Shown here piece by piece: positions 1,240 to 35,681 of a DNA stretch of 64,000 bases. Source of the stretch: Eutreptiella sp. 'Long Island Sound 2002' (Eukaryota; Euglenozoa; Euglenophyceae; Eutreptiales; Eutreptiaceae); contig OZ038378.1 of the NCBI GenBank assembly GCA_964036045.1, positions 58,875,408 through 58,939,407 on the forward strand, in the 5' to 3' direction. Each line of letters begins with the position of its first letter. Position 1 is the stretch's first letter. A program made the position numbers and the translations under genes. Below the pieces are notes generated by a model that was not told where the DNA came from, made no database searches, and saw only the letters and a list, made by a program, of their open reading frames with translations.

Positions 1240-4200
1240 ACACCGAGCGAACACACCTGTGAACAGGAGCCAAGTGGCCCAGGACACCGCACAGCACACC
1301 AGGCGAGCGCACCAGTGAACAAGAACCAAGGGGCCCAGGACACCGCACACGCAACACAACACACTGGGCGGACACACCGGTAAACAGGAGCCAAGTGGCC
1401 CAGGACACCGCACACACAAAACAACGCACCAAGCGGGCACACCGGTGAACAGGAGCCAAGTGGCCCTGGACACCGCACCAGGAAAACAACGCACCAAGCG
1501 GGCAAACTGGTGAACAGGAGCCAGTGGCCCAGGACACCGCACACACAGGCAACGCACCGAGCGGGCACACCGGTGAACAGGAGCAAAGTGGCCCAGGACA
1601 CGGCACAAGCAAAAAACACCACGAGGAAGCACACCGGTGAACTGGAGCCAAGTGGCCCAGGACCCCGCACTCGCAAAGCAACCCACCGAGCGGGCACACC
1701 AGTGAAGAGGAGCCAAGTGGCCCAAAACACAGCACAAGCAAGGCAACACACCATGCGAGCACACCGGTGAACAGTAGCCAAGTGGCCCAGGACACCGCTC
1801 AAGCAAAGCAACGCACCGAGTGGGCACACCGGTGAACAGGAGCCAAGTGGCCCAGGACACCGCACAAGCAAAACAACACACCCAGCCGGCACACTGGTTA
1901 ACAGGAGCCAAGTGGCCCAGGACACCGCACACACAACACAACACACCGAGGGGGCACACCGGTGAACCGGAACCAAGTGTCCCAGGACACCGCACACGCA
2001 AAGCAACGCACCGAGCGGGCACACCGGTGAACAGGAGCCAAGTGGCCCAGCACACCGCACAAGCAAAACAACACACCCATGGGGCACACCGGTGAACAGG
2101 AGCCAAGTAGCCTAGGACACCGCACAGGCAACACAGCACACCTAGCGGGCAGACCGATGAACAGGAGCCAACTGGCCCAGGACACTACACACACAAAGCA
2201 GGGCACCGAGCGGGCACACCGGTGAACAGGAGCCAAGTGGCCCAGGACACCCTACACGCAACACAACAAACCAGGCGGGCACACCGGTGAACAGGAGCCA
2301 AGTGGCCCAGGACACCGCACACGCAACACAACACACCGGGCGGGCACACCGCTGAACGGGAGCCAAGTGGCCCAGAACACCACACACGCAAAGCAACGCA
2401 CCGAGCGGGCACACCGGTGAACAGGAGCCAAGTGGCCCAGGACACCGCACACACCAAGCAACGCACCGAGCGGACACATCGGTGAACAGGAGCCAAGGGG
2501 CCCAGGACACCGCACACGCAACACAACACACATAGCGAGCACACCGATGAACAGGAGCCAAGTCGCACGGGACACCGCACAAGCAAAACAACGCGCCGAG
2601 CGGGCGCACCGGTGAACAGGAGCTAAGTGGCCCAGTACACCAAACACGCAACACAACAAACCACGTGGGCACGGCGATGAACAGGAGCCAAGTCGCACAG
2701 GACACCGCACACGCAAAGCAACGCACCGAGCGGGCACACCGATGAACAGGAGCCAAGTGGCCCAGGACACCCCACATGCAAAGCAACGCACCGAGTGGGC
2801 ACATCGGTGAACAGGAACCGAGTGGCCCAGGACACCGCACACGCAACACAACAAACCACGCGGGCACACCGTTGAACAGGAGCCAAGTGGCCCAGGACAC
2901 CGCACACGCAAAGCAACGCACCGAGCGGGCACACCGATGAACAGGAGCCAAGTGGCCCAGGACACCCCACATGCAATGCAACGCACCGAGTGGGCACCTC
3001 GGTGAACTGGAACCGAGTGGCCCAGGACACCGCACACGCAACACAACAAACCACGCGGGCACACCGTTGAACAGGAGCCAAGTGGCCCAGGACGCCGCAC
3101 ACGCAAAGCAACGCACCGAGCGGGCACACTGTTGAACAGGAGCCAAGTGGCCCAGGACACCGCACAAGCAAAAAAACACACCGAACGGGCACACAGGTGA
3201 ACAGGAGCCAAGTGGCCCAGGACACCGCACAAGAAAAGCAACGCAAAAAGCGGGCACAGCAGTGAACAGGAGCCAAGTGGCCCAGGACACTGCACACACC
3301 AAGCAATGCATGGAGCGGGCAAACTGGTGAACAGAAGCGAAGTATCCCAGGACACCGCACACACAACATAACACACGGAGCGAGGACACAGTTGAACAGG
3401 AGCCAAGTGGCACAGCACACCACACAAGCAAAACAACGCGCAGAGCGGGCACAGCGGTGAATAGGAGCCAAGTGGCCCAGGACACCGCACACGCAACACA
3501 ACAAACCACGCGGGCTCACCGGTGAACATCAGCCAAGTAGCCCAAGACACCGCACACGCAAAGCAACACACTGAGCGGGCACACCGTTGAACAGGAGCCA
3601 AGTGGCCCGGGACACCGCACAAGCAGAACAACACACTGAGCGAGCAAACGGGGGACCAGGAGCCAAGTGGCCCAGGACACCGGAAACGCAAAGCAACGCA
3701 CCGAGCGGGCAGAGCGGTGAACAGGAGCAAAGTGGCCCAGGACACCGCACAAGCAAAACAACGCACCAAGCGGGCACACCGGTGAACAGGAGCCAAGTGG
3801 CCCAGGACACCGCACACACCAAGCAATGCACGGAGCGGGCACACCGGTGAACAGGAGCCAAGTGGCCCAGGACACCGCACACGCAACACAACACACGAAG
3901 CGAGCACACCGGTGAACAGGAGCCAAGTGGCACAGGACACCGCACAAGCAAAACAACGCACTGAGCGGGCACACCGGTGAACAGGAGCCAAGTGGCCCAG
4001 GACACCGCACACGCAACACAACAAACCACAGGAGCACACCGGTGAGCAGGAGCCAAGTGGCCCAGGACACCGCACACGCAAAGCAACGCACCGAGCAGGC
4101 AGGACGTTGAAACGGAGCCAAGTCGCCCGGGACACAGCACAAACAGAACAACACACTGAGCGGGCACACTGGTGAACAGGAGCCAAGTGGCCCATGACAC

Positions 4201-4455
4201 CGCACACGCAACACAACAAACTACGCGGGCACACCGGTGAACAGGAGCCAAGTGGCCCAGGACACCGGACCAGGAAAGCAACGCACCGAGCAGGCACACC
4301 GGTAAACAGCAGCCAAGTGGCCCAGGACACGGCACAAGCAAAACAACACGCCGAGCGGGCACACCGGTGAACAGGACCAAAGCGGCCAAGGACACCGCAC
4401 AAGCAAAACAACGCACCAAGCGGGCACACCGCTGATCAGAAGCCAAGTGGCCCAC
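1240..4455. repeat. 65-bp tandem minisatellite, about 50 imperfect copies
   Basis: A unit of 64-65 bp repeats across 3.2 kb. Its core reads ACCGGTGAACAGGAGCCAAG, followed by TGGCCCAGGACACCGCACAC and a more variable CAAAGCAACGCACCGAGCGG part. Copies differ by substitutions and 1-bp length changes. Because the unit lacks stops on the minus strand and 65 is not a multiple of three, very long minus-strand frames (up to 725 codons) arise in several phases; they encode a Cys/Val/Leu-rich 65-residue super-repeat and are best treated as non-coding. The array ends at about 4455, where the sequence becomes unique. Confidence 0.92.
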
Positions 4456-7400
4456 GATGGGTCGGGCGCACTGGGGCGACCCAGCAAACCCACCGGGCCA
4501 GCACCACGGGCGGTACTCCAAGGCCACTGGTCTGAGCCCGGCCTGGCTGCATCGGGGACCACGTCAAACATTACCCGGAGCCAAGGAAGCAATCGATGAC
4601 AGGCGAGCTGGTACACAGTCCAGGAAGGGGTTGGCTGCCAAGCAGAAAGGCCCCGCAACTCAAGCCACAAGTGGGAGGCGGTCGTACCGTAGACTAGCAG
4701 GAGCAATACCCCTTGTGGTGAGAGATACTCCACACGGCTAGGCAGCCCCCAGAGCTGCCACCCAAAGGAGGGGGCATGTGACCCTACCCATGGACACATG
4801 TGAAGACACCCTCCTACCTGGGACACCTGGACCGGATGGCCGCGACACTGCCTTCCCAAGCACCTGCGGGAGCGGCTTAAGAGGTACCTGAAATAGGGCA
4901 GTGGAAGGGCAGGATGTCCCCTTGGTAAGAGATTCTTCCCGGATTGTCACGGGGGGGATCCCGAGTTCTGGAAGATACGTACCTACCTACCTCCTTGAAA
5001 GGAGAATTGACCATGTCTACCCCTCCGGCACAAAGCGGGAAATCTGTTTTTGAACGTGCGTATTTCAATGCTTCCAGAGGAGGAGTGTACTGGGCCCCGT
5101 TGTTGGTTTTTTGATGCGCCATTATCTGCGGTCTTCTGCGCATGGGAAGATTGCGGACTAGATCTTGTAGAGGACAGTCGTCTTTGTTGTCGGAGACGCG
5201 AAATGCGCTTTTTGGGTTATCAACTGGTAGAAATTGAGCAGCTTTTGCGTCTCTTGACTTGCTTGATGAAAATGAACCACAAGTTGTTGTTTTGAAGATG
5301 ACAGGTAGGTAAAATTGTACAACTCCCCGGAAACTGAATGCTTAGGTAATTCCACAGGGTTGCGGTCATTTGTGATGGGTCATGCCGACGACCCCAAATT
5401 CATTGTCAATCTTTCTGAATGCAAAAACAATAGACACTCAGAAAGTGAGGATGACAACAAGGTGATACTGCTTTGGAAACGCCCGTTGCAGGTTCCAGCT
5501 CAAGTACGCAAAAGTACTATCAACATTGAGGTTGAGCAAATGAATTATGAGAAGTACATTGAGAGCGCTTGAAGGCCCAAGTGAGTCTCAGTTGATCAGC
5601 TTGAGAGGGCAAAATGCTGCTCCGGTCCTCAGCTTGTACCGCAGCTCTTGCTTGCTTGCGAGCTCTTGACGCCAGGTCAACTAATAGAGAACACGTGAGT
5701 GGGCATGTTCCCACATAAATTCGTTTTTTGCACGCCTTCGGACCTGATAATTTCTGTTACATCCTTAGTAGTCCTGGCATGCCTCTCAAAACCCTGACTC
5801 CAGACTGATTTGGTCATGGGGGCAGCTATGGTTCTTTTTTTACGCAGTTGTAATGGCGTCTATGACCAACGCAACGTCAAACTTTAATCTCCTACCCAGG
5901 TCCTCACGCCAGGGTAGTCACGTGCTGCCCATTTGTGGCCCAATATTTCCTGTGACACTTGAGCCCCTGCCATCCCGACCATGATCCAACAGACCATTTC
6001 ATAGGTCCATCTAGTGTCCTGTACCATCTGAACCTACATTGTTCCCCCCTAAGGGTCGAGGCTACAGAACACATAGCCTAAGTAGGTAGGTAAGTAAGTA
6101 AGTAAGGGCGCACATTTGATTGTCACAAAGCTCCTGATTTGTTCTACACTGTGGTCACCTCTGGCGGGAAGGCAAGCTCTCCACCATTGGTTCCCTGCAG
6201 CAGGCAAGCAGGGCACTACATGCACAGGCACAAAAGGGAATCACACTGAATCCACTGTAGGACCCTTCATATTGCCTACAGACAAACTACCTTCTCAGAA
6301 GTCTAATTTACAAAGCTCAGTGTGGCATCAAGCAGCAGCAGAGTGCACCAAAGCTAATGAATGCATGGCTGAAATACCCGACTTCGTACAACAAACCTTA
6401 ATGCTATAAACCAAGCCCATGCACTGCTTTCATATGTAACTGAAGTTACTTCTGAGATTCGCAGGAGGATCCTCTGATTTGATGGTTCCATGAATTCAAT
6501 TTGCCTCAGACTACACCGACAGCGGCCCACACATGTGTTTCAAACACACAAGAAGTCGTGGAGAGAAAAAGCTCTAGTGGCCTACCATGTAACTGATCTC
6601 TGAACCTTGTAACTCCATTTTTCACTGGCACTTGATGTAACTGAATCGACCTGTAACACATATACAAGGAGGAGAGGTAACCGGAAATGCATGCAGAGGA
6701 ACAGGAAATGCATGTTTGACAATGTAATATTTATCTAACTCAGGAAAAAGAGGCCCTCTGCTTTGTGGGCAGGATCGGGGAAAACCAAAAAATATGTGGA
6801 ATCACTGCATGCTCCTCTTGAGCGCCCCGCACCTTAACATGCACCCGCACCCTACTTGGGCTCCGCAATGCTTGGCCACTGTTCACTATCAGTGGTTCAA
6901 CACATGTGATTATATAATCAGACCCAACTGTGTTGCCAGCCCACATTCCGAAGGTGGCCGGCTGGATTCACGAAACAAAACTTTAATCACTGCCCTTCAT
7001 GTAAATTGGTACGCACACAAAGCAGAACGCACGCACTCCAACACTGTGCACGTGCCTACACACGGGCAAGCGCAAGCACTCCAACGCGCAGAGCGCAAGC
7101 ACTCCAGTGCAAGTATGCAACCAAGCTACCAAAATCTGACAAGACCGTCCAAAATGCCAAGACCAAGGCAAAGCTGCAATCCCTCGCTATACTTTAAGCA
7201 CCAAAACAGTGCTTTAGGGCCAAAATTGGCCTCTGACGCAAGCTTCACTTTTACATTCAGCTCAATCTGAGGTATATTTAGAATAAGAACCCAGCCCCAG
7301 GGGGGAGACATAGTGCAGCGCCTTAGCGGTGCCATTAGAGCTGTTCAGTGCTACAAAGGTACCACATCTTAGCTGTGGTAATAACTCGGCACGGAGTGAG

Positions 7401-9277
7401 GATGAACTAAAGCTGGAACCAGGTATGCAGTAAGAGTCTGCCACACTGCCACACTTCCGGACTCCAACTGTTCCAGAAGCAGGAGCCTAGGCTGAAAAAC
7501 TTCAAGCGCGGTTGAGCACACGGGACACAGTTATATCCTTGCGTTCATTTGCCAGCAGCGCGTTTTAACACTGCTCTCTGTAAGCCTGGTTCGCGCTGCC
7601 CAAGGGCTTTTTCCCGCCCTTCTTCTTACGACGCCCCTGCATGTGCGTTCCTCGAACCTGCATTTGGTGATTACCACTTGGAGGCGTTGCTGTCCCAGCG
7701 CACAACTCTGAGGACCTTGGGGATTTCTCTTGATGAGCGCTCCTTCATTTTCGTTTTCGTACTAGTGACCTTGTTGTACGCTGTGTTGTGCAGTGCGCTT
7801 TTCTGTCGCTGCGCCCCTGTTGATGCTGTCTAGTTTGCATGCAGGGTTGCACTCAAGGCATGAACAGCCGCAGCACTAACGGCACCAGCGTTTGCTGTCA
7901 ACCGTCCCGTTTGCGCGTGGAACGTGGGCCAGTTAAGCACGGCATCTTTTTCCGGTGCGTAGGAATCATTGTTTCTGTGTTTGATCAGCACAGAAACGCC
8001 TGCTCGTTGTACCTACCTTTCTGAGCGGTGACGGTAAAAAGTATATCTAAAATGCGTAACTCCTGCACTCAGGCCCGCAGCTGCGCTGGATGCCGTTGAC
8101 GGCTCTCCGTACTCATTGATAAATGTCCTGTCTAACGCCCAAGAGAGTTGAAGAGGCACCAAAAAAATCTGAACCTGCATTGAAATGCAGCTGATACGCT
8201 GCCCCGGCTGCTCAGCAACGTTATCCAAACTTTTCTCTTCGTCGCTTCTCCCAACCGCAGTGTCGCTGTTTTGCTGATCTTCACACGGATCGTTCAATTG
8301 CCCAAGACAGCGAAATTGTAGCAGGCCAGCGGAGCAATGCATGCACAGGCGGAAAGCGGAATCCCACTGCTTTCACTGTACAACCGTTCATAGTGCAAAC
8401 AGACAAACGAATTGTATTCTTTCATTATGTAAACATACAAAACATTTTTGCATTAGTCAGCAGTCTGAGTATCTCCAGATTTAGATCTGCGAGCAAGCGG
8501 TGAACGCCATGAGCACGCATGTGACGTCTGCATCCCCCTGCTGTCCCGCCTCACGTCCAGAGACTTCAACCAGGTTCCCCTACAGCCTGACCGGCAGTAG
8601 ATTTCTTTCAGGCGCCGCCGTCATGGGTGCTTCCTCCAGTTTCCTTTCGAAGGTTCCTACGGCCTACTCCGCCCGTAAGCACAGCCTTTCGGTTGCATGC
8701 AGGCGATCGTACTGTGGAAAGCCGGCGCGAACAGTGCAGCATTTCATCAACCACATTGCACCACTGCGGATCCCTCACCGGCTGGAGTACCCCCTTGGCT
8801 CCCAAATTTACTTGACTATCCTCCATCAATGGCTGGAGGCTAGGGGCCGGCCGTTTCAACTTTTCCTGGGCGGAGCAACGTGTATTGAGGCCATTGACCC
8901 GGGGACCACCGGGTCAACCCTCAGCCCTGCAGGCACCTCACGGTCATCCCGGATTCGAGGATATTTTCCAGAAATCCCGTGGCCAGGCTCGCTATTGTTG
9001 GCCCATGGTTCACCGCTTCATGGCAAATGGTTTCGCAGTCCCACAGGGCTGTTGCTTGCCGCCTTCTGCCGCGTCTGCCTCTTCTCTGTGGCTCTGCACC
9101 TACGACATGGGGTCTCCTTATTGACGTTCGCTTATCACAGAGAGACCACATCGCGTTGGCCCGTTCCACGTTCTTGCAGTGTATCCGGAGTCTAGCCCCC
9201 TCTTCTTGTTCTGTGACGTACTTAGCGTGTTTATGCCCCACCGGGCCGCGAGCAACCCTGTGGCCTGAAGGACTGTT
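4456..9277. other. Unrecognised intergenic sequence with short microsatellites
   Basis: No gene, RNA or mobile element could be supported here. Short simple repeats are visible: tandem TACC units near 4978-4992 and tandem AGGT/AAGT units at about 6081-6107. Open frames are at most ~230 codons, lack recognisable motifs and overlap on both strands. A stretch near 7590-7640 weakly resembles 11190-11250, which may make it a diverged piece of the same retroelement leader. Confidence 0.4.
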
Positions 9278-22144: not shown

Positions 22145-22639
22145 TTACCAAGCATGTATTCGTGGAATCCTTACAGAAGATATCTGCAAGGCCCTACCAT
22201 ATCCTGTCCAGCTTGGGATGTAGGCCAGGCTGATCAGTCCTGTCTTCGACCCATGGGGGGTCTCCTCCTTAAACCGCAGAGACGGGTGTTTTTTTAGGAC
22301 GGCCTGGTACTCCTGGGCATGGAGGTGGTCGAGCTGTTGTTTAGCGAGCTGGCGTTCGTCCTGAGCCCTGCAGAAGTACTCGGTTGCAACCTCCACCCCA
22401 CTCTTCACGGTCAGGGGGGGTGCCTCGTCAAACATGATAGGGTCCCGGCCGAAAACCAGCCGGTGCCGTGAGAAGGGTGCGATGGGGCCCGGTAGGTTAT
22501 TGAGACCCCAGAGGGCGAATGGCAGGGCATAGATCCAACCAAGTTCGCGGAACACCACGTATAGTCGCAAAGCATTGATAATAGACTGGACTGCCCGCTC
22601 CGCACGTCCATTACTCTGTGGTATATACACTATAGACTT
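22145..22639 (-). pseudogene. Ty3/gypsy integrase, C-terminal part (split by LINE insertion)
   Basis: The minus-strand frame reads KSIVYIPQSNGRAERAV, the conserved segment around the third catalytic residue (Glu in GRAER) of retroviral-type integrases; the rest of the core lies 9 kb away at 31602-32253. Residues after it (LPFALWGLNN, RLVFGRDPI) match the usual end of the core and start of the C-terminal domain. The frame is interrupted at 22639 by the LINE; the 15 bp at the break are repeated at 31587-31601, and the reading frame is the same on both sides. After the core the frame runs to 22145 without a recognised chromodomain. Confidence 0.85.
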
Positions 22640-22653
22640 AGTGTATATACCAC
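22618..22653. repeat. 13-bp perfect inverted repeat across the 5' junction of the LINE
   Basis: GTGGTATATACAC (22618-22630, target DNA) and its exact complement GTGTATATACCAC (22641-22653, first bases of the insertion) flank a 10-base loop. The insertion therefore begins with an inverted copy of the target DNA immediately next to it, which suggests template switching or fold-back priming when the 5' end was joined. Confidence 0.75.
22625..22639. repeat. Target-site duplication of the LINE, left copy
   Basis: The 15-mer ATACACTATAGACTT occurs here and at 31587-31601, bounding the LINE. Removing the LINE plus one copy restores the integrase frame. Confidence 0.93.
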
Positions 22654-22934
22654 TTCTCACTTTCTGAGTGTCTATTTTTTTTCGATTTACCCTCAGAAAT
22701 TCATTGATGGATCCACCAGCAGTCCAGGCTGCTCAGTGATAAACGAAAATCCTGGGCGGTTCAAGGTCTGGGCTGATCCCGTGGAGCCGTGGATTACCAT
22801 CAAAAGTCCCAAAGCCGCAATTTGGAGCCGAGGCAAGCGAAACAACCTTGCTGCCAATTTTTTTTGCCTAGCGCAAAGCCGCAATCGTGAGCGCCGTCCT
22901 AGTTGCCTAGCATCACAACGCCATTTTCTTGGCA

Positions 22935-23615
22935 ATGTCGCAAGTTGGGCCCAAGGAACGTTCCGCAAAGGACAAGACCGAAAGCAAACAGCTGAAGTCC
23001 GTGAGGAACTTCATTGCTCGAACTCAGGCTAAAGTGCACAACAAACTGACTCAAAATCGGCTCTTCTCTCTGTTTCCGCCCGCCAAGCGCGAGAACGACC
23101 CATTTCACCCTTCACTCGACCTTTCCCGGTCACATCATCCAATGTCATTTCAGACGATGAACAACCCGAAAATGTCGCAAAAGAACTCATCCACTCGCCG
23201 AGACAACCGCTCACACCGCCAAAGGAAAGAGAGGCCAAGAACCACAACATCCAGTCCAAGCGCCCGCACTGCCAACCAACTCCGAGAAGGAAGCCATCCA
23301 CGTGATGCCGAAGAGTTGAAACAACAAGAGAAATGTCGCGAAGACCCGTGTGGAGATTCGGCAATGAACAACAACGCCGCTCTCGGCGACAACGCAAGGA
23401 GAACCAATGAGGTTGAGCCCGACAACTCCCTCTTAACGCCACGTGAGGAGCAATCTACGCCAAGCGCTATTCCGTCTCCTGAAGGAACACACGAAAAGGC
23501 CGAAGACGGGGAAGACCCTACTCGGATGATAATTCCGGAAAGCCCTTCTTCAACCCTTCCCTTGCCCCGGATGGTGTCTTTGCAAAATTCTTGGTTAAAC
23601 ATAAAGGTGAGATAA
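22935..23615 (+). CDS. LINE ORF1, basic low-complexity protein
   Basis: About 226 codons from an ATG at 22935 (another ATG lies two codons upstream). The product is rich in Lys/Arg/Ser/Thr/Pro/Gln with no zinc knuckle or RRM that I can see. Position at the 5' end of a LINE and the basic character suit an RNA-binding ORF1 protein, which is inference. After the stop at 23613, a frame covering 23616-23791 (residues such as WGETHDHDTLGIDTNQ) looks like continuing protein, so ORF1 may originally have run into the next ORF. The second LINE (51.7 kb) also starts with a Ser/Pro/Lys-rich segment but shows no clear alignment. Confidence 0.6.
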   Translation: MSQVGPKERSAKDKTESKQLKSVRNFIARTQAKVHNKLTQNRLFSLFPPAKRENDPFHPSLDLSRSHHPMSFQTMNNPKMSQKNSSTRRDNRSHRQRKERPRTTTSSPSARTANQLREGSHPRDAEELKQQEKCREDPCGDSAMNNNAALGDNARRTNEVEPDNSLLTPREEQSTPSAIPSPEGTHEKAEDGEDPTRMIIPESPSSTLPLPRMVSLQNSWLNIKVR

Positions 23616-23745
23616 ACACACACGATCAACAAGCACTATGGGGAGAAACACATGACCATGACACCTTAGGAATTGATACAAATCAACTGGTGTTGGAGAA
23701 ACCCCACAAACAAATCATCTATAACCAAGTACCCCCTACAATAGA

Positions 23746-26165
23746 CCCTTGCGCGGGCGACGGGTGCACCTTTCTCCACAATTGGACATAACAATTTTAG
23801 GTACCTCAAGAACATCCTTCATCACCACCCAAAATTCTACATTTTTCCACACCCACAAGATTACTACAACTCCAAATACAAATACGGCCACACGTGGACC
23901 GAGTGGGCCCATGCCATCAACGAAGCCTTGCAAGAAGCCTTTGATTCCGGTGTTGTGTACGAAGGCTCCTTCATTCTCCCGGGAACGGAAGACAACCTTT
24001 CGGCGGAGACCCTGTACATGAACCCCTTGAACCCCGGCATGATCTCCCTTGCCCCTTGGGTATGTGGAGTAGACCGGCTTTTGGATGCCCACACGTACAA
24101 CCCCTCACCTAATCCTGATGGCTCCGTGTGGCTCAACTGGCTTGACTCTCCTCAATACCCATATTTTCACCTTAACTTCTCCACCCGTCACAAGCACAAC
24201 GCACACATCCGCTACGGCGACATCATGCACCCTCGAACTTGCCTACAATGGGCTATAGATAAGGTAGAGGGCACCGTCCAAGTGGCCGCGGTGCGCACAA
24301 CGCTACGATTCGAAGTTGCACGGCATTTGCTCCCAAACTTCACCGTCTCTTGTCAAAAAGAACTTTCCAAAAAATCCAAGCGGGAACGAGGAGAGTATAG
24401 GCGGCGCCGTGGTAACGCCCGGGACTTTTTTGTCCTCGTCAACCGCCTTTTCCATTTCGAGAACGACCACATCTCGGTCAACTCCCAATGCGCTTTCTTT
24501 CCAGAGGAACGCATAAAGCTTCTACAATCATCCTCCGAACATATGTTCCGCTTCGACTACACCATTCCAACCCCCCTCGCCGAGAAGCTTCTCTCCACCA
24601 TCTTACAACACCCTCTGTGGACGCTTGGCAAAGTCTTTTGCATCCGTGGTTCCGATCTAGGGAAGGACAAAACTTTCAAAGTTGTCCCTTCTAAAGCATA
24701 CAAAGTGGCCATGCCGGAGTTCAAACAAATTGACGTGTGGAAATCCCTCCTTACCAGCGAAGCCGCGCTACGGTGCGGTATCCTAGGGGCCATTCCCAGA
24801 ACACAACACGAGTTTTACGTGTGCATGAACTATCACAACATCCCCTTGCTCCCCCAACGGGATTCCCTCACTTCCATGAGTTACATGCTCTTCCAAGAGA
24901 ATAACCTGGTCACGTATCGGGGCACTACGGGAGCCATGATCTCTTTGGGAGGATACTCCTTGTGGCGCTCCAAACACCCGGGACACAAAATGGACCTATC
25001 CGCTTCTCCCCGAAATGTGCACAAAGATGCCCCTCCCCCGCCCTCCCCAGTGAAGGCTTGCTTCAACCCCCTCCCCGAGCCTCCTGATCCAGAACTGGTA
25101 GAAGTTCACACCCCGTCATTCACGCTGGACGTTGATGTAATGTTTGGGGTCTCCCCGCTTGGGAAAATTCAGCACATTTCCTTGTTCAGCGCCCCCATGG
25201 CTAAGGTGCGAGTCTACCGAGTCAAATATGTTCATCACGAATCCGCGCTCCTTGCAGAAGGCTTCACTGTGTCCAGGCTCGTATTTCACCCCGAATCCCC
25301 CGACACGGCGGCACGCAACAACCTTCTGGGTCCCGCGAACCCCCTAGTTTCAGAAGCCCAGGCTTTCCTATCACGTGTCATCGAGGCGGCGACTGCCTAC
25401 GGCAGCGCGGAACAACTAAGTCTCGCGAGGGACCATTACTTGTCCACAAGCAAGCCCCTCTCCCTCACAGAAGAGATCGCACAGCTCCACCTCCAAACAG
25501 GGAAAATTTTTGACCCCATCCCGGAAATAGCAGGAGCCTTCATATCAAATGAATTTTTCTCAGAAGAAGAAGAAGCCCTGGTGATGTCCTTCAGTGCAGA
25601 TGAAAATCACCAGTGGCTGTCCGAGGGGCACCACACAATGCTTCATTTCGGATTCAGGTACAATCCAGAATCAAAAGAAGTTGAACCTTTTGAGCTGACC
25701 CCTCCTGAGTTTATTCAAGCGATTGGGCTACGGGCATTCTCTGCCTGCGCCAAGGTCCTGCCTTCCTCTCTCTTATGCCCCAACATGTGGTCAGTGGCTC
25801 GATACGAGCCCGGCATTTGCCTGAGGAGCCACGTGGACGTCATTCAGCTAGGCCCTTATGTCCTGGATGGCTCCTTTGGGTCAGTTGCGGAAATTTCTTT
25901 CGAACCGCGTCCCCTCCCCGGATCCACCCTCTTTAAGAAAAGGCAAGAAGTCTTCCTACAGCGCCGCAGACTCCTCCTAATTTCTGGGGAAGCCCGCGAC
26001 AAGTGGAAGCACCAAATCCCAGCCCGCCACTATGACACAGTGGAGAAGCGGCGCATTCTCCGCGACTCCAGGGTATCCCTTGTCTTCCGCCACACTGGTG
26101 TAGGAACCGACCTCCGTACGACATCCTCAGAGCCTTCTGATCCAGGGCAACATGAAGCGAATTAA
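23746..26165 (+). CDS. LINE-encoded protein with C-terminal AlkB-type dioxygenase domain
   Basis: The frame is open from the stop near 23743 to the stop at 26163; no ATG occurs early, so translation may come from read-through or a lost start (numbering here counts from 23928). The first ~510 residues are unrecognised. Residues ~520-725 form a 2-oxoglutarate/Fe(II) AlkB fold, closest in feel to ALKBH8: YEPG, then H635-x-D637 (iron), GSVAEISF, LLLISGEARDKWKH with H695 (iron), and R715-x5-R721 in RVSLVFR (2-oxoglutarate). All signature residues are present. AlkB enzymes remove alkyl groups from nucleic-acid bases; here a role in repairing the element's RNA or cDNA is plausible but inferred. The frame overlaps the next short ORF by a few bases. 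It is the longest unbroken frame in the element. Confidence 0.88.
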
Positions 26166-26496
26166 TGAACCTGCGCTTGGCGTCACCCTTCTGTGCACAC
26201 GAGACGTGGTCTTCGCTTTAAGACTAGGAATGCCCTCCAACACCATTATTGCATGTTCTCCGGCATGGCAAGGCCATCGCTCCACCACTCCCCCTGTGCG
26301 TGACATGAATTCCTTAACCCCTGTGACCGCCAGGTATGCCCTGACCGGGCTGATCGTCGCTCACTGTGTGCCGGACCACAAAGTCCTGTGTTTCCCCCTG
26401 TGGGGAGCTCTGATGAGTCTACGGAATGCTACCCGTCCCCATATTCTTTCTGCCCCCCTCCCACCCGTCAGTGCCACCGCAGTAGATGTAACATGA
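26152..26496 (+). CDS. Short LINE frame after the AlkB ORF
   Basis: A 114-codon frame starting at an ATG that overlaps the stop of the AlkB ORF (ATG at 26152, stop of the previous frame at 26163). No domain is recognised. It may be a real small ORF or the continuation of the AlkB protein after a frameshift. Confidence 0.35.
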   Translation: MKRINEPALGVTLLCTRDVVFALRLGMPSNTIIACSPAWQGHRSTTPPVRDMNSLTPVTARYALTGLIVAHCVPDHKVLCFPLWGALMSLRNATRPHILSAPLPPVSATAVDVT

Positions 26497-26795
26497 GATG
26501 GTGTCAAGAGTTCCTCGCCCGCGTGGGCGTGCACGGTGCCTCCACCACCGCAGCCGTCTCTCGCATCGCGGAGATTCTCCGTGTGGAACAAGCACACATC
26601 AACCCGAGAGTATTGGTCCCAGACACAAGTGTCTCTACAGACCTGACCATACACCCCTCTCTTCGCACTGCCTGTGACACAGCCCTACACCACTCGCCCA
26701 AAGCGTACGCACAAGCACTTCACTCACGGATTTCTACACTAGAACAGTGCAACCCCGACCCCTCAATACAGAATGAGGACCCTGCCCACATATAA
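26493..26795 (+). CDS. Second short LINE frame, before the endonuclease
   Basis: About 100 codons beginning at an ATG at 26493 (RWCQEFLARVGVHG), stop at 26793. It has no recognised domain; helical content is suggested. It is followed by ~200 bp of C-rich DNA with a 14-base C run near 26853. It could be the degraded N-terminal linker of the endonuclease-RT ORF. Confidence 0.35.
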   Translation: MRWCQEFLARVGVHGASTTAAVSRIAEILRVEQAHINPRVLVPDTSVSTDLTIHPSLRTACDTALHHSPKAYAQALHSRISTLEQCNPDPSIQNEDPAHI

Positions 26796-27003
26796 GCGCT
26801 CCTGACTCCCTGCTGGATACCCGCTATTCCTCCATTCGGAAACCCTCCTTCCCCCCCCCCCCCAAGTACACAAGCCCTTCAAGCCTAGACGCTTGCGCCA
26901 CCCTCCCCCTTCTCTTCCCTCCGTCCCGGCCATCCGTGTCGTGTCCTTCAAAGCGACAAAGAGCCAGAACACGCCTGTGTCAATTTTGCATTTTCTAAAC
27001 AGG

Positions 27004-27732
27004 GGATATGACATTATACTCCTTCAGTAGCCAAACTCTCCCCCTCTCCTCCCACAGCGGTACGCCTTCGGCAATGACCGCGCTAAAGTCTTCTCGAATG
27101 TCTGCGGCCACAAACACGGTGTGTCGGTCATTGCAGGCCCCTGCATCGCGAGATATACCAGCTGTGTCCCGCCCAGAGACAGCGAGGGCCTTATCTGTGG
27201 TGCCAAAATATCCCTTCCAGAAGCAGCTCCCCTGCACGTCTTCTCAGTTTACTTCCCTCCGGTGCGCACGGGGGCCCCAGCTCCGTACCGTGACACCATA
27301 CAGCAAGTTCTTGCTTCTTATTTCAACGATCATCCCAATCACATCCTGGGGGGTGATTTTAACTGCGTTCTGGATCCCGAACTTGACCAGCACAGCTTGG
27401 TCGATCTACATGAGTGGCACTGGCTCAAGGGGGAAGTGGAATACCTCCCATCTAGGTCGGTGGACACTTTCAGGTCAGAGCACCCCTCCCTGAGGCAGTA
27501 TACCCGCTACGCAAGCGGCCGCTGGGAAAGCGAAGCAAGACTAGACTACATCTTTGCGTCCCCTCGCCTTGTGTCGCACTTTTCCCTTCTGGATGCATCG
27601 GTCCTCACGGACTACACCATCTCTGACCACCACCCTCTTACGCTCTTACGCTCGACCCCGCCTCCTTCTTCCCCGGCATTTCCGGAGCACATTGCGGAAG
27701 TTCAGTCCGTGGTAAACACCTTACGGTCCTAG
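27004..27732 (+). pseudogene. LINE EEP endonuclease domain, catalytic Glu codon now a stop
   Basis: The frame reads GYDIILLQ, then TAG at 27028-27030 exactly where the catalytic Glu of the LQE motif belongs, then P; the downstream frame is otherwise open to 27730. Later motifs are intact: GGDFN (about 27350), RLDYIFAS (~27540) and SDHHPLTL (~27625), which are the metal-binding, DNA-binding and catalytic His motifs of exonuclease/endonuclease/phosphatase nucleases. This enzyme nicks target DNA to prime reverse transcription. A single base change would explain the stop. Confidence 0.85.
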
Positions 27733-29868
27733 GACGAAACCAAAGCGAAGGGAAAACTTCACAGTAGTCTGGTCCGGGGGGTCCAGATGAAAAGCGCTGT
27801 TGCTCGCACCCTCTGCCCTAAAGACCTGGAGCCTCTCGTTGTCAGAGATCCAGCTACCAAAGAGCTCCTGAGTGACCCGGCAGATGTAGCTAAACTTTTT
27901 GGGGACACCCTGCTTGATCTTGGAGGGCATCCAGATTACGCCACCCCCCGAGACTTCCTCGACGAGGTCCTTTCCCACTCGCCCACATGCCCCGTTTCTG
28001 CCAAGAACGACCACATACCTCCTCTGACTTGGCAGGAGTTCCTGAACCACTTAAAACACAGTAAGCCATCAAAAGCAGGGGACCGGACAAAACAAACAAC
28101 TACATCCTGGCCCTCTGTCCGGAACCCATTCACCGTTTTTTTCACTCCATTTTAAACCGCTTCCTCCATTCACCGCTGCCGCCGCACTGGCAATGCGCGA
28201 AAATATGTTTACTTTATAAAAAAGGCGACCCTTCCTCCCCCTCAAACTACCGTCCTATTGCCCTCTTAAACTGTATTTACAAACTCCTGGCCACTTTTGC
28301 CTGCAAACACCTGCCCGCTCAGGCTTTTGCACACGACATCCTTTCAGAAGTCCAGCACGGTGGCCATCCCGGCCACCAATGCGCTGATCATCTGTATCAT
28401 CTCAAAGCCCCTTATGCAAAATCGAAGAAGAGTTACTCGCTGTTCATCGATTTCAATAAAGCCTTTAATTCGGTGCCTCATGGCACACTCTGGACCGTCC
28501 TCAAACGGGCAAATTTTTCTGCTTCCACAATTTCGCTCATAAAGCAACTATACTCCTTCCCTCAAGACAGCCCCATCATCAATGGCCGCACTCCCCACGC
28601 TTACCTGCAAACCAGAGGCCTCCAGCAAGGATGTCCCCTCTCCCCCCTACTCTTCATTCTCAATCTCAACTCCCTCTTCAACCATTTTTTTGCCACCATG
28701 CCCCCCCCCCGGGCAAATGTCCGCACTAGCCACCACGCTTACATCGACCACATCCTGATCAGAAGTGAGGACGTCGTCTACATCCAAAACAGTCTCAACT
28801 ACGTCGACGGGCCAGCCAGGGACTGGGGTCTGGACATGAATGTGTCTAAAACCGAAGTCCACGCCAATGGCACAGCCCCCCAAAAAGAGTTTCTGACACT
28901 CAGGGGCTCGGAATTCCTCACGTACAACAAAAAAACAGGTCGCCCGCACACATGCTATAAATACCTGGGGGTTTATCTTTTTACTTGCCATCAAGCAAGG
29001 GGCCTGGTTCACATGCTCAAGGCGGAGATCCAAAGTTATTTTGCCCGACTGCCCCCCTTGCCTCTTACACTTAGTGAGAAGGTCCGGTTGACGAACTCTC
29101 AGCTGGTCCCAGCACTCGCCTACCGCTTAATCACCCACTCTCTTTCCCCCAACCAGCTCGAAAAGCTTCAGGCACTCATCTGCGCGGGAGTTGCGTCTCA
29201 AAGCATCACAAGTCTAGTCCTCCCAATAACCGTTTCGCGGCTCTCCCAAAGGGAGGGTTGGGAATGAAATTTCTACCGCACAGCGTCCACGTTGCCACCG
29301 TGAACTATGGATTCCGGGCCTTGCCCCAAAGTCAGTTGGCCCCCTGTACGTCCAGTCCTTACTCAGCTCGCACCAGAGGGCCTCGGATCCGGTGCAAAAC
29401 TCTTGTATGGACTCCATCCATGCCTCAGGCATATCCTTCCACAGCAGAGGCCCGTGGAGACCCACTGCTTCTCGGGATCTAACGCCTGGTACCCAGCTAA
29501 TCGTTAAGTTCCAATCAGGACAGGCCACAGGAAGAGTGACCGAGGCCAACTCCAAATGGGCCAACGTCTCGTTCCATGACGGGGTCTACTCAGTGGATAC
29601 CCACACGTCCTACACCATGCACATGCCATGCCACGCCGTCATGGATTACTCCCGCCCCTCTCACTTCCAGCTCGTCCCTAAATTTTTGCGCCCTCAAGAT
29701 TCCATCCCCGAACCTCCAGCGCCACCGCACAACGCACACGGACTGGGAATCAGCCAACACGGCCATCTCTTTGCTCTGCAGGCACAACACTACCTAGAGA
29801 AGGAGTCTCTCGACGAGTGGGGATGCCATGATGCCGCGGAGGCACTAACCAGGCCGCCGGTCCCCGGC
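27733..29868 (+). pseudogene. LINE reverse transcriptase, with YADD-type motif changed to YIDH
   Basis: The N-terminal part (27787-28078) is followed by a one-base frameshift inside KAG/GPDKTNNYI; the RT core then stays open (about 28200-29267). Visible blocks are LYKKGD.S...NYRPIALLN, motif A FIDFNKAFNSVPHG (Asp codon 28449), motif B GLQQGCPLSPLLF, and motif C, where the expected second Asp is His (HAYIDHILI, His codon 28749-28751). Loss of that Asp should abolish polymerisation. The thumb region runs to 29267; beyond it, frames at 29258-29482 and 29392-29871 continue the protein after further shifts. RT uses nicked target DNA as primer to copy the element RNA. Confidence 0.88.
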
Positions 29869-30506
29869 TAAAGCGGGTGTGGCTATATTCCGATGGCTGC
29901 TCCGGTGAATCCGGCCATGCGGCCGCCGTCACAGCCTTTCTACCCGACGGCACAACCAGAGTCCTGTGCCTCTCCTCACCGCATCTCTCTTCTCTGGGTT
30001 CGCAGTGCTTGGGGGCGGTAGCAGCGATTCGCTGGATGAACAGGGAACTTTCCCAATACGAAGTATGTTTGTTGATTGACAGCGAACAGGTGGTGTCCAC
30101 CCTTCAGAAATGCCGAGTCTATAGGCCCAGCCCGTTCCAGGACGACACATGGACCGTCGCCGTACACAGCGCCCTACTTCTCATCACCGACCCCCTCCAC
30201 ATCATGTGGATTAAAGGTCACGCCAATTTTATTGGCAACGAAATCTGCGACCATTTCTCTAAATGGGCAGCTCACAGCCTGATTTTCACCCCAGACCCCC
30301 CCCCCCCCCCCGGGTCAGTGGCGGTACACCACCTGCCCGTCCTCCACAAGTATAAGGTGCAGCAATTCCGCCACCTATTGCCGCAGCATTCCCACAACAA
30401 CGTAGCGGTCGGCCCCAGCTTCAGCCTGTACAATAAAGCTTCCTGGTTTTCGTCCTTGTTTTTCAAACTGGTGTCCGGGTGCTACAATGTGCACGGGCAC
30501 CAGTGA
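29869..30506 (+). pseudogene. LINE RNase H domain
   Basis: The frame starts VWLYSDGCSG (first catalytic Asp). The segment that normally carries the catalytic Glu (AEL in most LINEs) reads SLGSQCLGAV, so Glu is probably replaced by Gln. LLIDSEQV supplies the third acidic residue, and WIKGHANFIGNEICDHF matches the His/Asp end of the domain. A TGA at 30504 interrupts the frame, which then continues unchanged into the zinc finger. RNase H would remove RNA from the RNA-cDNA hybrid. Confidence 0.85.
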
Positions 30507-31460
30507 AGCAATATCCTTCACGACAACCACTGTTCCAGGTGCGGACAGCACCATCCTTTCCACCCTCTATCCTGCCTGGCCTTCTGCAAAGTGTTAGACC
30601 AGCACGTCCAGGCATACGTCTTTTCCTGGGGGCCCCTTTTCGGCCCCATTGTCCTGCACTGGTGGCTCTCTGGACCCTCAAAGGCTGACCGGAGAAACTT
30701 CATGAGAACTCTGGTACCTAAGTCCCTATGGTCCTGCCTCTCAAAGCCGATCCCGGGCTCCACTCCCGCCGAGCACAGGGCCATGCTTGGCCTAGCCCTG
30801 GAGGAACGCGTAAAGCACCTGGACAAGGCTGTCAACCAAGCACATGACTGGTTGTGTTCGAATCCTCTCCCTTGGGACCCAATACTTTGGGCGCACCCAT
30901 CCGACCCTCTCAACCCCTTCTCGGTTTCGCATGGTGCATTCAGTACCTCCGTCCACATGCCCCCTCGGACCCGCCTCGTATACCAGCACCCCCCACCTCT
31001 CCCAAAACACGCCTCAAAAAAACCGTCCAAGTCAGCGTCAGCCAAAGCACGACCAGCCACTCGTGGCGCGCCAAAAAACTCCAAACGCCCGTCCAGCGGC
31101 GCATCTGCACCACGGGCCGCCCCCCAGTCGGCCATTCCCCGCCCTCCTCAGCACTCACGCCCACGGCCACCACAAACCCATCAGACCACAATCGTTTGGG
31201 CGCCCCCAAAGCGCGCCAACACCACTCCCCCTCTCCCAACCCCACGCTCCAAGGCACGCTACCGTCAAACACGCCTACCTCTCCCCTCTAGGCCCACCGC
31301 TACTAAGTGCCCAGGTCCGTCTGCACCTGCCCCCCCCTACTCCAACGCCTCCTGGGACATCCGAAATTTTTTCCGCCCATCCAGCGACCTTCTGTCTCCT
31401 CCTCTCGATCCCTTCAGCCCTCTGCCCCTTCCTGAACCCCCCCCCTCCCCCACAGGGTAA
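30507..31460 (+). CDS. LINE C-terminal region: zinc finger and proline-rich tail with PCNA-box-like motif
   Basis: Directly after the RNase H stop the same frame gives HCSRCGQHHPFHPLSCLAFC, a C-X2-C...H...C finger of the kind found after LINE RTs. Then follow a helical stretch (KADRRNFMRTLVPKSLW, LEERVKHLDKAV) and about 150 residues rich in Pro, Ser, Ala and Lys. Near the C-terminus SWDIRNFF (codons 31350-31373) fits the I-x-x-F-F core of a PCNA-interacting box, lacking only the leading Gln. A PCNA box is known in human L1 ORF2p, so a replication-fork link is possible but inferred. The frame ends at 31460. Confidence 0.75.
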   Translation, partial: SNILHDNHCSRCGQHHPFHPLSCLAFCKVLDQHVQAYVFSWGPLFGPIVLHWWLSGPSKADRRNFMRTLVPKSLWSCLSKPIPGSTPAEHRAMLGLALEERVKHLDKAVNQAHDWLCSNPLPWDPILWAHPSDPLNPFSVSHGAFSTSVHMPPRTRLVYQHPPPLPKHASKKPSKSASAKARPATRGAPKNSKRPSSGASAPRAAPQSAIPRPPQHSRPRPPQTHQTTIVWAPPKRANTTPPLPTPRSKARYRQTRLPLPSRPTATKCPGPSAPAPPYSNASWDIRNFFRPSSDLLSPPLDPFSPLPLPEPPPSPTG

Positions 31461-31586
31461 ATCAGCGTTCATCTAACCTTACCATCAGAGCAACCGTGTA
31501 CATATCATAAGATGTTGTTGTAAATACTTTCATTGGGGGATGTCAGCCCCAGAACAAATTGATGCGGTTAAGAACATTCAAAAAAA
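31461..31586 (+). other. LINE 3' untranslated region and A tail
   Basis: A short 3' UTR ends in AACATTC followed by 7-8 A (31580-31587, the last A shared with the target duplication). It has no AATAAA signal. Confidence 0.75.
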
Positions 31587-31601
31587 ATACACTATAGACT
31601 T
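31587..31601. repeat. Target-site duplication of the LINE, right copy
   Basis: ATACACTATAGACTT, identical to 22625-22639, immediately after the A tail. Confidence 0.93.
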
Positions 31602-32577: not shown

Positions 32578-33006
32578 ATGGTGCAACTTGGAATTCGACC
32601 CGAAACCGCGGTGGGCACGACGAATGCTTATGGCCAGGACGTTGAGGACGCGCTTGTGCAATTTTTCTCCTCCTTCGGCCTTGGACGCCAGCTTTTACAT
32701 TCAATCTACACAGGAGTCAACCCTGGCGCTGACAAGCAGACATTGAATCACCTGCTACGGTGGCACAGTGATGCTCAATGCTCGCCTGAAAAAGCAGTTG
32801 CTTTGCTTCTTAATTTGGGAATCCCTAGACGCCGCCTTCGGGTTCTATCGCGCTTTATTTGCAAGCTTGCGGACATATGGTACAGACAGACTGGCCTAAG
32901 GTTTGGAAAACCAATGCAAGGCCGCCGGAGAGTCAACTTGGCTTGGAAAAGGATGAAGGAGCCCCTGCACCCTGTTGGCCACATCGACAAGAGAACTGGC
33001 ATCTGA
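32578..33006 (+). pseudogene. Transposon A transposase, N-terminal exon
   Basis: A frame from an ATG at 32578 to a stop at 33004. It aligns with the first exon of transposon B: GTTN....DVEDALVQFF against GGTN....LVDDLFTFF, a shared KQT, then AVALLLNLGIPRRRLRV against AVRLILDLAMPKRRY. The C-terminal part is basic (GKPMQGRRRVNLAWKRMK). Function of this region is unknown; it may be DNA-binding. A 27-bp tandem repeat (GATTTGTxCxAGAAAGA) precedes it at about 32455-32518. The end of the exon is masked by the nested element at 33023. Confidence 0.6.
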
Positions 33007-33022
33007 AACGTCTCCTGGCCGT

Positions 33023-34293
33023 TTGATCACTAGATTCGGGCCACCTCGCTCTCCTGTCGCCATCCTGTCGCCTCCCTGTCGCCTCCCCGTCGCTGTTTTG
33101 GCACTTTTAGCCCCCTGTCGCTCCCCTGTCGCTTGCCTGTCGCTCTCCTGTCGCTATCCTGTCGCTCCCCTGTCGCTCCCCTGTCGCTTCCCTGTCGCTT
33201 TCCTGCCGCCCTCCTGGCGCTATCCTGTCGCTTCTTGTCGCTTCCTGTTGTTTCCTGTCGCCATGCTAATTTTGCCTGGCGCCTTCCTGTCGCTCTCCTT
33301 TCGCTCTCCTTTCGTTCCCTCCTGTCGCTCTCCTGTCGCTCTTTCCTGTTGCCTCCCTGTCGCCCTCCTGTCGCTTGCCTGTCGTCTTCCTGCCGCCTTG
33401 CTGTCGCCTCCCTGTCGCCTCCCTGTCGCCTCCCTGTCGCCCAATGTGGTAACTTGTCGCTCTCCTGTTGCTTGCCTGTCGCTTGCCTGTCGCTTTCCTG
33501 TCGTCTTCCTGCCGCCTCCCTGTCGCCTCCCTGTCGCCTTTCTGTCGCCCAACGTGATAACCTGTCGCTCTCCTGTCGCTACACTTATCTTTATCATTTA
33601 GTTCTCAGTTTCAGGCGAAATCTACCTGCGTAATGAATCGATAAAAGATGAAAATTCCCCAAACGCTAAAAGTTTATCCATCTAACAATGAAATGACACC
33701 TTCATAAGAATCCAAATAAATGTAAAACATTTGTTCTCATTTTCTTTGCATATATCCACCTGTATAAAAATCCGTGTACTATTTTGTCCCACTTGTTGTC
33801 TTCCACAGGCCTGTCGCTCTCCTGTCGCACCCCTGTCGCCTTCCTGTCGCCTTCCTGTCGCCTTCCTGCCGCAAAAAAACACCCCGCCGCTCTCCTTTCG
33901 CTCTCCTGTCGCTCTCCTGTCGCTTTCTCATGTCGCTTCCCTGTCGCTTTCCTGTCGCCGCTAGCCCTGTTGCCCTCCTGTCGTCTTCCTGTCGCTTTCC
34001 TGTCGCTTATCCTGTCGCTATGTCTTGTTTCCTGTCACTTCCCTGTCGTCTCCCTATCGCCACCCTGTCGCCGCCCTGTCGCCCTCCTGTCGCCCTCCTG
34101 TCGCACCTCCCCTGTCGCCTTCCTGTCGCCTGCCTGTCGCTTCCTGTCGCTTCCCTGCCGCTTTCCTGCCGCTGGCCTGTCGTCTTCCTGTCGCCACCCT
34201 GTCGTCTTCCTGTCGCCACCCTGTCGCCTTCCTGTCGCTCCCTGCCGCATTTCACCGTCGCCAGCCTCGCGTGGCCCGAATCTACCGGATCAA
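33023..34293. mobile_element. Nested element C: inverted repeats enclosing a CCTGTCGC minisatellite
   Basis: The left end TTGATCACTAGATTCGGGCC and the right end, reversed, TTGATCCGGTAGATTCGGGC match over ~22 bp with two or three differences. The 1.27 kb between them is nearly all a ~10-bp tandem repeat, apart from a ~210-bp AT-rich core (33596-33804). It interrupts coding between the N-terminal exon and the GDG exon of transposon A. It has no coding capacity and may be a non-autonomous element or an expanded intron with a hairpin-like outline. Confidence 0.65.
33055..34255. repeat. Minisatellite of CCTGTCGC units in two blocks
   Basis: About 90-100 tandem units of NNCCTGTCGC (8-12 bp, mostly 10) lie in 33055-33590 and 33805-34255. 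Variation is concentrated in the two spacer bases and occasional TGCCGC or TGTCGT variants. Open frames within it are repeat artefacts. Confidence 0.9.
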
Positions 34294-34534
34294 CTACGTT
34301 TTCACACATCCTTGCCTCTATGAAACTCTACAGCCCAGCAAAGATAGGTTGGTTTTCATTGTGAGTGGCGATGGTTATCCTGTAGCGGGTGTAAGCTGGA
34401 CTCTGCTTACCATTCGCATCCAAAGTCATCAGCATCTAGCCCGCAATGCAGCACACATTTGGGTTTTAGAGCTGGCATACTGTGGTCACTCCAATCTGAA
34501 GGATTTGCGCCGGGTCTGGAAGAAGAATCTGAGG
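34294..34534 (+). pseudogene. Transposon A transposase exon with first acidic motif (SGDG)
   Basis: The frame reads DRLVFIVSGDGYPVAGVSWT, with Asp at 34370-34372, then a variable stretch and LKDLRRVWKKNLR. Transposon B has DHPYLLIVRGDGFHVEQGHG at the same relative place, followed by a similar DL....KK segment. I take this as the first catalytic Asp of an RNase H-like transposase. The exon ends with codon AGG directly before GTATGT (34535), splice phase 0. Confidence 0.7.
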
Positions 34535-34652
34535 GTATGTTATTTCTTCAAATATTGCCTTCGTTCGAACCTTCGACCGTTCAAACGAAGCTTTTCCTTC
34601 GAACGAACTTGTTTTTCGAAGAAAATTTTGATTGCGGTTTGCACGTTACCAG
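34535..34652 (+). repeat. Transposon A intron holding a palindrome array
   Basis: The 118-bp intron runs GTATGT...TTACCAG. Removing it joins two frames that are both homologous to transposon B. It contains CTTCGTTCGAACC, GTTCAAACGAAG, CTTCGAACGAAC and TTCGAAG within ~70 bp, the same words as in the element's terminal arrays. Confidence 0.8.
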
Positions 34653-35681
34653 GTCCTGCAGCGGATCATAACTACGCGATCTGTCGTCGTGAAGGGCGCA
34701 CGCTGTGCGGCAAGTGTTATGCGGGGCGGAGATTTACCGTTTTTGAACACGTTTTTGGGACTTACTGAGCATTGGTATATACCGTCAGTTCACAACTTGG
34801 GCCTTTGGAACCCTCTCAAGAGGCGGTACCTGGGCTGTGCTCGGCACAGAACGCGCACTGGTGATGCGTCCTGACTTGGCAAGACCCCTGTCTGCAAGGG
34901 AGCTCGTGGCTGCACTTCGAAACCTTTGCTTCAAGTACCACGACACCATGCCATTATTTATGTTCTTCATATGCTTATGCGAATTGGTGCTTTGCTTGGG
35001 GAATACTTAGAAAGGCTATGCTTGTCCGCCAGCAGGGAAGCACAGAACGCTATCAATAACATGCTGAAAATTGCTCCGTGTGGTTGGCAGCTAGGTGGAA
35101 CTTGTAGACCTGATGGACAAGAAACGAAGCGTTTTTTTTATATGGGATGGTATTCCTCAAATTTGTTTTGGGTTGGCCGACGGGCACTTGACTAACCACG
35201 CTGTCATCAGGTTGCCGGAAGTGTTGCAACAGCTCCATCGCACCTGTCAGCGCATCGACATTGACCTCCCAGCGGAATGTCGGCAGGCGGCCTGGGAATT
35301 TCGCGCACACTGTTAGCCCGATACCCATTCTAATTATCTGATAATCTTGGAGTTCGATGTGCCCAGAATCCTAGAGGCAATAGCACCTTACGGGCTTGGG
35401 ATGTACTGCCAGGACTTGCCTGAAACCACGAATGCCAAGCTAAAGGATTTCTACTTGCGGTTCACAAACAGAGGGGGCAGCACCACAGATGACTACCAGC
35501 CCTCTGCTCTACTACAAACCATGGAGCATGCCTTCCCGTACACACACTCCCATATTGTAGCTCACGGTACAACGCGCCCGATCTCTTGCCCAAACGCTGC
35601 ATTTTTCGAATCTTTAATAGACAATGCCGCTCAATGGTGCTGACGAAGGAAGACAAGGCCGATGTCGCAGGACTGGTGGTG
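34653..35681 (+). pseudogene. Transposon A transposase exon with GGD and Glu motifs
   Basis: The exon opens VLQRIITTRSVVVKGARCA and continues MRGGDLPFLNTFLGL, Asp at 34731-34733; transposon B has IIGGDSPRLCNILGL. After frameshifts near 34870 and 34990 and a less clear middle part, the last third reads CQDLPETTNAKLKDFYLRFT (Glu at 35422-35424), matching B's GDIVESLNYVFKNNFLTT. This supplies the second Asp and the final Glu of a D-D-E catalytic triad. A TGA at 35641 interrupts the frame shortly before the splice site GTATGT at 35682 (phase 2). The motif order is like that of a group of uncharacterised eukaryotic transposase-like proteins with SGDG and GGD-x-(K/P)FL-x-LGL; that link is from memory. 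Confidence 0.7.

Follow-up and report, generated by a model that had tools for sequence, protein, structure and literature searches.

The closest described counterpart of the locus reported here is an AlkB protein of Ty3/gypsy retrotransposons in the orchid Phalaenopsis, which, according to the sections of PMC9289625 drawn on here, binds RNA and demethylates m6A in vitro. There, as in our case, a lineage of retrotransposons acquired an AlkB domain and has retained it with the cofactor residues intact. The orchid elements are described in those sections as LTR elements with an ALKBH5-like AlkB reading frame apart from Gag-Pol, acquired recently in the authors' view (PMC9289625), whereas the element analyzed here is a non-LTR one, has an ALKBH8-like AlkB fused to the end of ORF1 and occurs in families whose reverse transcriptases are 41% identical. 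AlkB domains are also reported, in the same sections, from plant RNA viruses (Alphaflexi-, Betaflexi- and Closteroviridae), for which RNA repair has been proposed (PMC9289625). Here too, a mobile RNA-based genome has its own AlkB, a likeness of description and not of sequence; these viruses differ in having no DNA stage. Among the literature matches listed on AlkB and dioxygenases in retrotransposons, which cover titles and abstract openings outside subscription journals and Repbase, none reports an AlkB in a LINE, and the AlkB in a LINE ORF1 is offered as an addition beside the published cases in gypsy elements and RNA viruses.

The window, by which we mean the whole analyzed stretch of 64,000 nucleotides from Eutreptiella sp. 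'Long Island Sound 2002', contains the element whose features are collected in Table 1. An earlier reading made from the sequence alone (the sequence-only reading) had taken its ends to be marked by a 15-bp target duplication and an A tail, and both are present. At the 5' end, the duplication stands, but 17–18 nt separate it from the usual start of the element, CACTTTCT, which in five of the seven copies tested lies 0–2 nt after a duplication of 15–18 bp; the junction in the window (22618-22653) reads like the result of a template switch by the reverse transcriptase. In a blastn comparison with the 19 other copies fetched, in which element bases were counted from 22640, the start falls at element base 15-21 in 15 of the 19, and seven reach the 3' end, base 8946-8947, within the stretch read. 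Duplications were sought in seven of the 19, since for the other 12 either the alignment or the fetched sequence stops short of an element end or the coordinates are off (L021). Five of these seven show duplications of 15–18 bp together with short A tails; no target duplication was seen at the 5'-truncated L032 or at L035.

Table 1. Features of the window copy of the LINE.
Feature	Positions	Strand	Basis or remark
LINE element, 8.9 kb in window copy	22658..31586	+	blastn against 19 other copies, and duplications
5' target-site duplication ATACACTATAGACTT	22625..22639	.	15-bp repeat
17–18 extra nt at 5' junction	22640..22657	.	part of inverted flank copy, 22618-22632 versus 22639-22653
N-terminal part of ORF1 (MSQVGPKER...), split from remainder in window copy	22935..23612	+	continuous in P0001
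Remainder of ORF1, 806-codon open frame ending in AlkB	23745..26162	+	frame analysis; contains 23928-26162
AlkB-type 2OG-Fe(II) oxygenase domain	25533..26102	+	PF13532 E=6.9e-8, Pfam match 25647-26090
H635-x-D637, metal ligands	25830..25838	+	residue conservation
H695, metal ligand	26010..26012	+	residue conservation
R715-x5-R721, 2-oxoglutarate-side arginines	26070..26090	+	residue conservation
114-aa frame, ATG overlapping ORF1 stop, possible link to ORF2	26152..26496	+	frame list
ORF2 endonuclease region, stop-interrupted in window copy	26932..27729	+	PF03372 E=2.7e-7 on 27121-27729
ORF2 reverse transcriptase	28065..29264	+	RVT_1 (PF00078) E=1.2e-14 on 28473-29264
ORF2 RNase H	29877..30503	+	PF00075 E=9.7e-7
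3' target-site duplication ATACACTATAGACTT	31587..31601	.	15-bp repeat, run of A directly before

When the flanks are joined across the insertion, they give one continuous frame of 351 residues. In the window this frame is split in two; one part has sub-cut-off hits to integrase models (rve, 4.3e-6; H2C2, 0.0026), the other part has no profile match, and the interrupted sequence is read as a probable Ty3/gypsy-like element. Long minisatellite-like tracts, in which short motifs resembling coding sequence recur (AVSWATWLLFTGVPA and LPVAFLSPPCR among them), occupy 712-4859 and 32975-34768 of the window.

The sequence-only reading had further placed the AlkB domain inside the LINE, upstream of endonuclease, reverse transcriptase and RNase H. 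This order holds, with the Pfam matches to all three lying downstream on the same strand, and the domain is indeed within the element, but it forms the end of a long ORF1 and not a gene of its own. ORF1 has 1134 residues in the database protein P0001, which represents at least 113 sequences, and ORF1 frames of 1118-1142 codons were found in seven of the 19 fetched copies. The longest ORF2 frame among these copies measures 1605 codons; in L036 and L039, endonuclease, reverse transcriptase and RNase H lie within one frame, and both give a full PF03372 match. The assignment to the LINE class rests on the target-site duplications with A tail and on this joining of endonuclease and reverse transcriptase in a single frame. 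Among solved structures, to which the comparison was confined, the best match of the L039 ORF2 is L1 ORF2p (6.8e-22), with R2-type proteins at 2.7e-13 and weaker. The present element thus resembles L1-type LINEs in having endonuclease and reverse transcriptase in ORF2, and differs from them in its RNase H and in its long ORF1 that ends in AlkB.

The window copy itself looks dead. The N-terminus of its ORF1 is broken, as is its ORF2, with a stop in the endonuclease; about 290 bp near 27635-27646 are absent, compared with 18 of the 19 other copies (the alignment of L029 ends there), and a motif of the reverse transcriptase reads YIDH, against YIDD in L039 and YIED in L036. Expression of ORF2 may require reinitiation or a frameshift. 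The ATG over the ORF1 stop also occurs in L038, and the ORF2 frame of L039 runs without an ATG for about 60 codons.

To place the AlkB domain among other copies, the 2.28-Gb assembly (2205 contigs) was searched with a 745-residue query. The best 60 of 2294 candidate places, the window being one of them, are all near full length with 89–100% identity, and an internal stop is absent from 43 of these 60. No sampled copy lacks AlkB, with the proviso that the samples are the best matches to an AlkB-containing query, so that copies without the domain are under-seen. More distant relatives fall into two groups. An intermediate family, known only from the database proteins P0016 and P0067, has the same ORF1 layout, with P0016 55% identical. 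A search of the genome with PF13532 gave 151 matches among the best 150 of 1107 candidates, including matches of 50–57 bits in long frames, and the three of these loci that were read are near-identical to one another. The upstream part of L050, taken together with L048, holds a distant ORF1 of the same layout, which we call family 2, the window copy belonging to family 1. Family 2 comprises L047 (G000:C10:7306480-7307050), L050 with L048 (C19:14659000-14661860), L049 (C27:18044730-18045330) and L051 (C19:14664050-14664950), and has NDYEPGVGIGWHKD at the site of ARYEPGSGLRSHVD in family 1.

The relationship of family 2 to the other families extends beyond AlkB. Outside that domain, its ORF1 matches P0001 with 131 bits (23% over 560 aa) and P0016 with 150 bits (24% over 577 aa), while 50 shuffles of the comparison with P0001 gave at most 25 bits; the hhalign probability is 99.3. 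Its reverse transcriptase follows about 2.2 kb past its AlkB and, in the 901 bases of this region that were read, is 41% identical over 194 aa. Since AlkB at the end of ORF1 is shared by the copies, the intermediate family and the distant family 2, it appears to be an old trait of this LINE group. The remainder of ORF1 in P0001, P0016 and the family 2 pieces gave no Pfam match over cut-off in searches with E up to 10 (a sub-threshold TMEM171 match in P0016 has E=0.45), and a three-family profile of ORF1 found no solved relative outside AlkB at E <0.05.

Searches of the protein database gave a similar picture. A profile of the AlkB domain retrieved 55 proteins, all 'ena' and 39–94% identical to the query, which apparently belong to the same LINE group; no host or foreign AlkB was among the 55. 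With the three-family ORF1 profile, at least two proteins were found among the best 8000 candidates scored, both of family 2. Pattern scans derived from the ORF1 profile, with two peptides each, hit 52 stretches in viral_contigs and 51 in genome_contigs, and not one of these hits was confirmed.

The domain is recognized as AlkB by PF13532, which matches residues 574-721 (numbered from 23928) with E=6.9e-8 and 33.4 bits, the curated cut-off being 31.2. Higher values were obtained for L038 (40.6 bits, E=4.3e-10), P0001 (41.5 bits) and L048 of family 2 (56.9 bits); the intermediate family remains below the cut-off, with 28.0 bits for P0016 and 29.4 for P0067. The signature residues named in the sequence-only reading, H635, D637, H695, R715 and R721, are all found where it put them, and they are well kept: the first four in all 20 loci and R721 in 19 of 20. 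In the covered database rows, the counts are 56 of 57 for H635, 55 of 57 for D637, 37 of 42 for H695, 34 of 36 for R715 and 30 of 34 for R721. Mean identity in these rows is 93% at the five catalytic positions versus 83% over all well-covered columns, and in the alignment the five positions are kept in family 2 as well. An N-x-Y motif behaves differently in the two families. In family 1, 55 of the 59 covered database rows have Ala for its Asn, and 56 of 58 keep its Tyr; in family 2, both Asn and Tyr are present. An Asn so placed, two residues ahead of the conserved Tyr, is listed as a 2-oxoglutarate stabilizer in ALKBH5 (PMC9289625).

The likeness to ALKBH8 that had been noted from the sequence context is corroborated by comparison with solved structures, in which AlkB homolog 8 (3thp) is the best match, with E=2.1e-7 for the window protein and 4.2e-12 for a 4-row profile. 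The next structure is 5yl6, which we take to be the fission-yeast protein Ofd2. ALKBH8 has an RRM before its AlkB domain and a methyltransferase domain after it. No methyltransferase-domain Pfam match was found in P0001, P0016 or L048, in which ORF1 ends shortly past AlkB, and no RRM match in P0001 or the family 2 pieces with E up to 10, although a diverged RRM could escape a profile search. Judged by the methyltransferase domain, the LINE ORF1 would not appear to be an ALKBH8 orthologue. 3thp and a host locus of the same type (L046) are the best sequence matches of the LINE AlkBs and share with them HxD, H and R-x5-R; they are about 28–36% identical over partial alignments, and the LINE domain stands inside a retrotransposon, in an ORF1 that matches neither RRM nor methyltransferase.

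Selection was assessed by counts and codon models on the 17 copies of equal length among the 20 loci, for which about 2.6 nonsynonymous changes to one synonymous change are expected under neutrality. Changes common to at least two copies number 4 nonsynonymous and 12 synonymous in AlkB, about 0.13 of the neutral ratio, and 17 and 52 in the rest of ORF1, or 0.12 of neutral. Private changes in AlkB number 57 and 45, or 0.49 of neutral, versus 0.39 in the rest of ORF1. One-ratio codon models gave an omega of 0.373 for AlkB versus 0.231 for the rest of ORF1. As the loci were picked by protein score, the nonsynonymous counts and all these ratios are biased downward; setting shared against private changes is less sensitive to this. 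In one family 2 pair, 24 synonymous and 13 nonsynonymous differences were counted over 175 codons. The shared changes show signs of purifying selection on the AlkB domain, and its conservation suggests that it does something useful for the LINE.

As to its origin, the AlkB of P0001 scores 88 bits with that of family 2, 58 with ALKBH8 and 49 with the best of the four host loci compared, out of seven such loci fetched. The sequence-only reading had envisaged a phylogeny against host ALKBH genes as a means of deciding whether the domain was captured once, and the outcome depends on the rows used. A tree of 18 rows unites the seven LINE rows in a single clade (95/93) that adjoins ALKBH8 (95/96). 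When the long or incomplete 8haz, 5yl6 and L044 are included, for 21 rows in all, just 40% of bootstrap trees group the LINE AlkBs together. The tree alone is no proof of a single capture. Because the domain occupies the same place in homologous ORF1s and the LINE AlkBs are most similar to one another, an ALKBH8-like AlkB was most likely captured once, before the families split.

The ORF1 proteins of LINEs bind the RNA of their element, and this offers a possible role for the domain. The reading that we favor, and regard as somewhat better than an even guess, is that the ALKBH8-like tail of the ORF1 protein erases modifications from its own LINE RNA in cis, having been captured once before the families split. 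The ORF1 protein would coat the element RNA, as in other LINEs, if RNA binding is assumed here too; before or during reverse transcription, the AlkB tail would oxidatively rid the coated RNA, in cis, of m6A, m1A or alkylation damage to its bases. As a result, host readers would not silence the element RNA, and reverse transcription would not be blocked. More tentatively, and falling short of an even guess in our estimation, this LINE group may have had an RNA-modification eraser built into ORF1 since before the family split, with RNPs that clean their own RNA as a standing counter-defense. That family 1 mostly has Ala in place of Asn in its N-x-Y motif counts against full activity, and the higher omega of AlkB than of the rest of ORF1 and the score of P0016 under the PF13532 cut-off also weigh against the proposal. 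The closeness to ALKBH8, a tRNA wobble-uridine hydroxylase and not a classic demethylase, counts against a demethylase.

The same observations bear on other roles. That the domain is no longer an enzyme and instead helps the ORF1 protein to bind RNA or to assemble would fit the Asn-to-Ala exchange in 55 of 59 rows and the elevated omega; a structural module, however, needs none of the catalytic positions, which are stricter than the average column and also kept in family 2, and we regard such a role as rather improbable. About as improbable, if not slightly more so, is a retained ALKBH8-like activity on tRNA wobble uridines that would tune the translation of element codons or of host defense mRNAs. 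For both families, AlkB homolog 8 is the solved structure that matches best, and it adjoins the LINE clade in the 18-row tree, but P0001 and the family 2 pieces match none of the other Pfam domains of ALKBH8 with E up to 10, and fusion to ORF1 would point to the element RNP over free tRNA.

The domain might instead act on DNA, clearing methylation or alkylation from bases of the target site or of nascent cDNA, or silencing marks such as 6mA from new insertions. In favor of this, the solved relatives include a DNA N6-methyladenine demethylase (8haz), which the ORF1 profile matches with E=2.6e-7. We consider such an action unlikely, the closest relatives being AlkB homolog 8 and 5yl6 and not homologs 2 or 3. 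Finally, the degraded state of the window copy might suggest a chance fragment of a host gene taken up by a single copy. This has almost no chance of being correct and was rejected for the set of copies examined, since AlkB stands at the same position in many copies and in divergent families; a capture private to the window copy is likewise ruled out by the other copies and family 2. Of the two outcomes that the sequence-only reading had named as telling against it, neither occurred: the AlkB profile gives a hit, and the domain is present in every sampled copy, the samples having been chosen with a query that contains it. That AlkB is a real part of the LINE, as first proposed from the window alone, is borne out by the many copies, the intermediate and distant families, the conserved ligands and the signs of purifying selection.

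If the LINE AlkB is an eraser of RNA modifications, as we favor, it touches on the disputed question of whether retrotransposons gain or suffer from base modifications on their RNA. In human cells, m6A is reported to favor L1 and ALKBH5 to suppress it, in the portion of PMC7873242 cited here, so that erasing the mark need not help a LINE. In Arabidopsis, as told in the cited sections of PMC9289625, ONSEN is restrained by m6A and released by ALKBH9B. A LINE with a kept eraser-type domain fused to its ORF1 protein makes the question of help or harm testable using one protein, and a LINE eraser would set a non-LTR case beside that of the orchid gypsy elements.

The host genome also has AlkB loci of its own. 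By best solved match, L041 resembles ALKBH3 and L046 resembles ALKBH8; L040, L042 and L043 (C2, C1 and C4 of G000) fall together with E. coli AlkB and the 5xeg chain, presumably a rice protein, and apart from the rows for ALKBH3, 6 and 8 that were compared. A search for chlorophyll a/b-binding domains gave 150 matches among the best 150 of 2612 candidates, many of them in long tandem frames of up to 6122 codons (G000:C9:43682069-43694992, C5:109275285-109282430 and C23:19070551-19075362), which recall the antenna polyproteins of euglenids or dinoflagellates.
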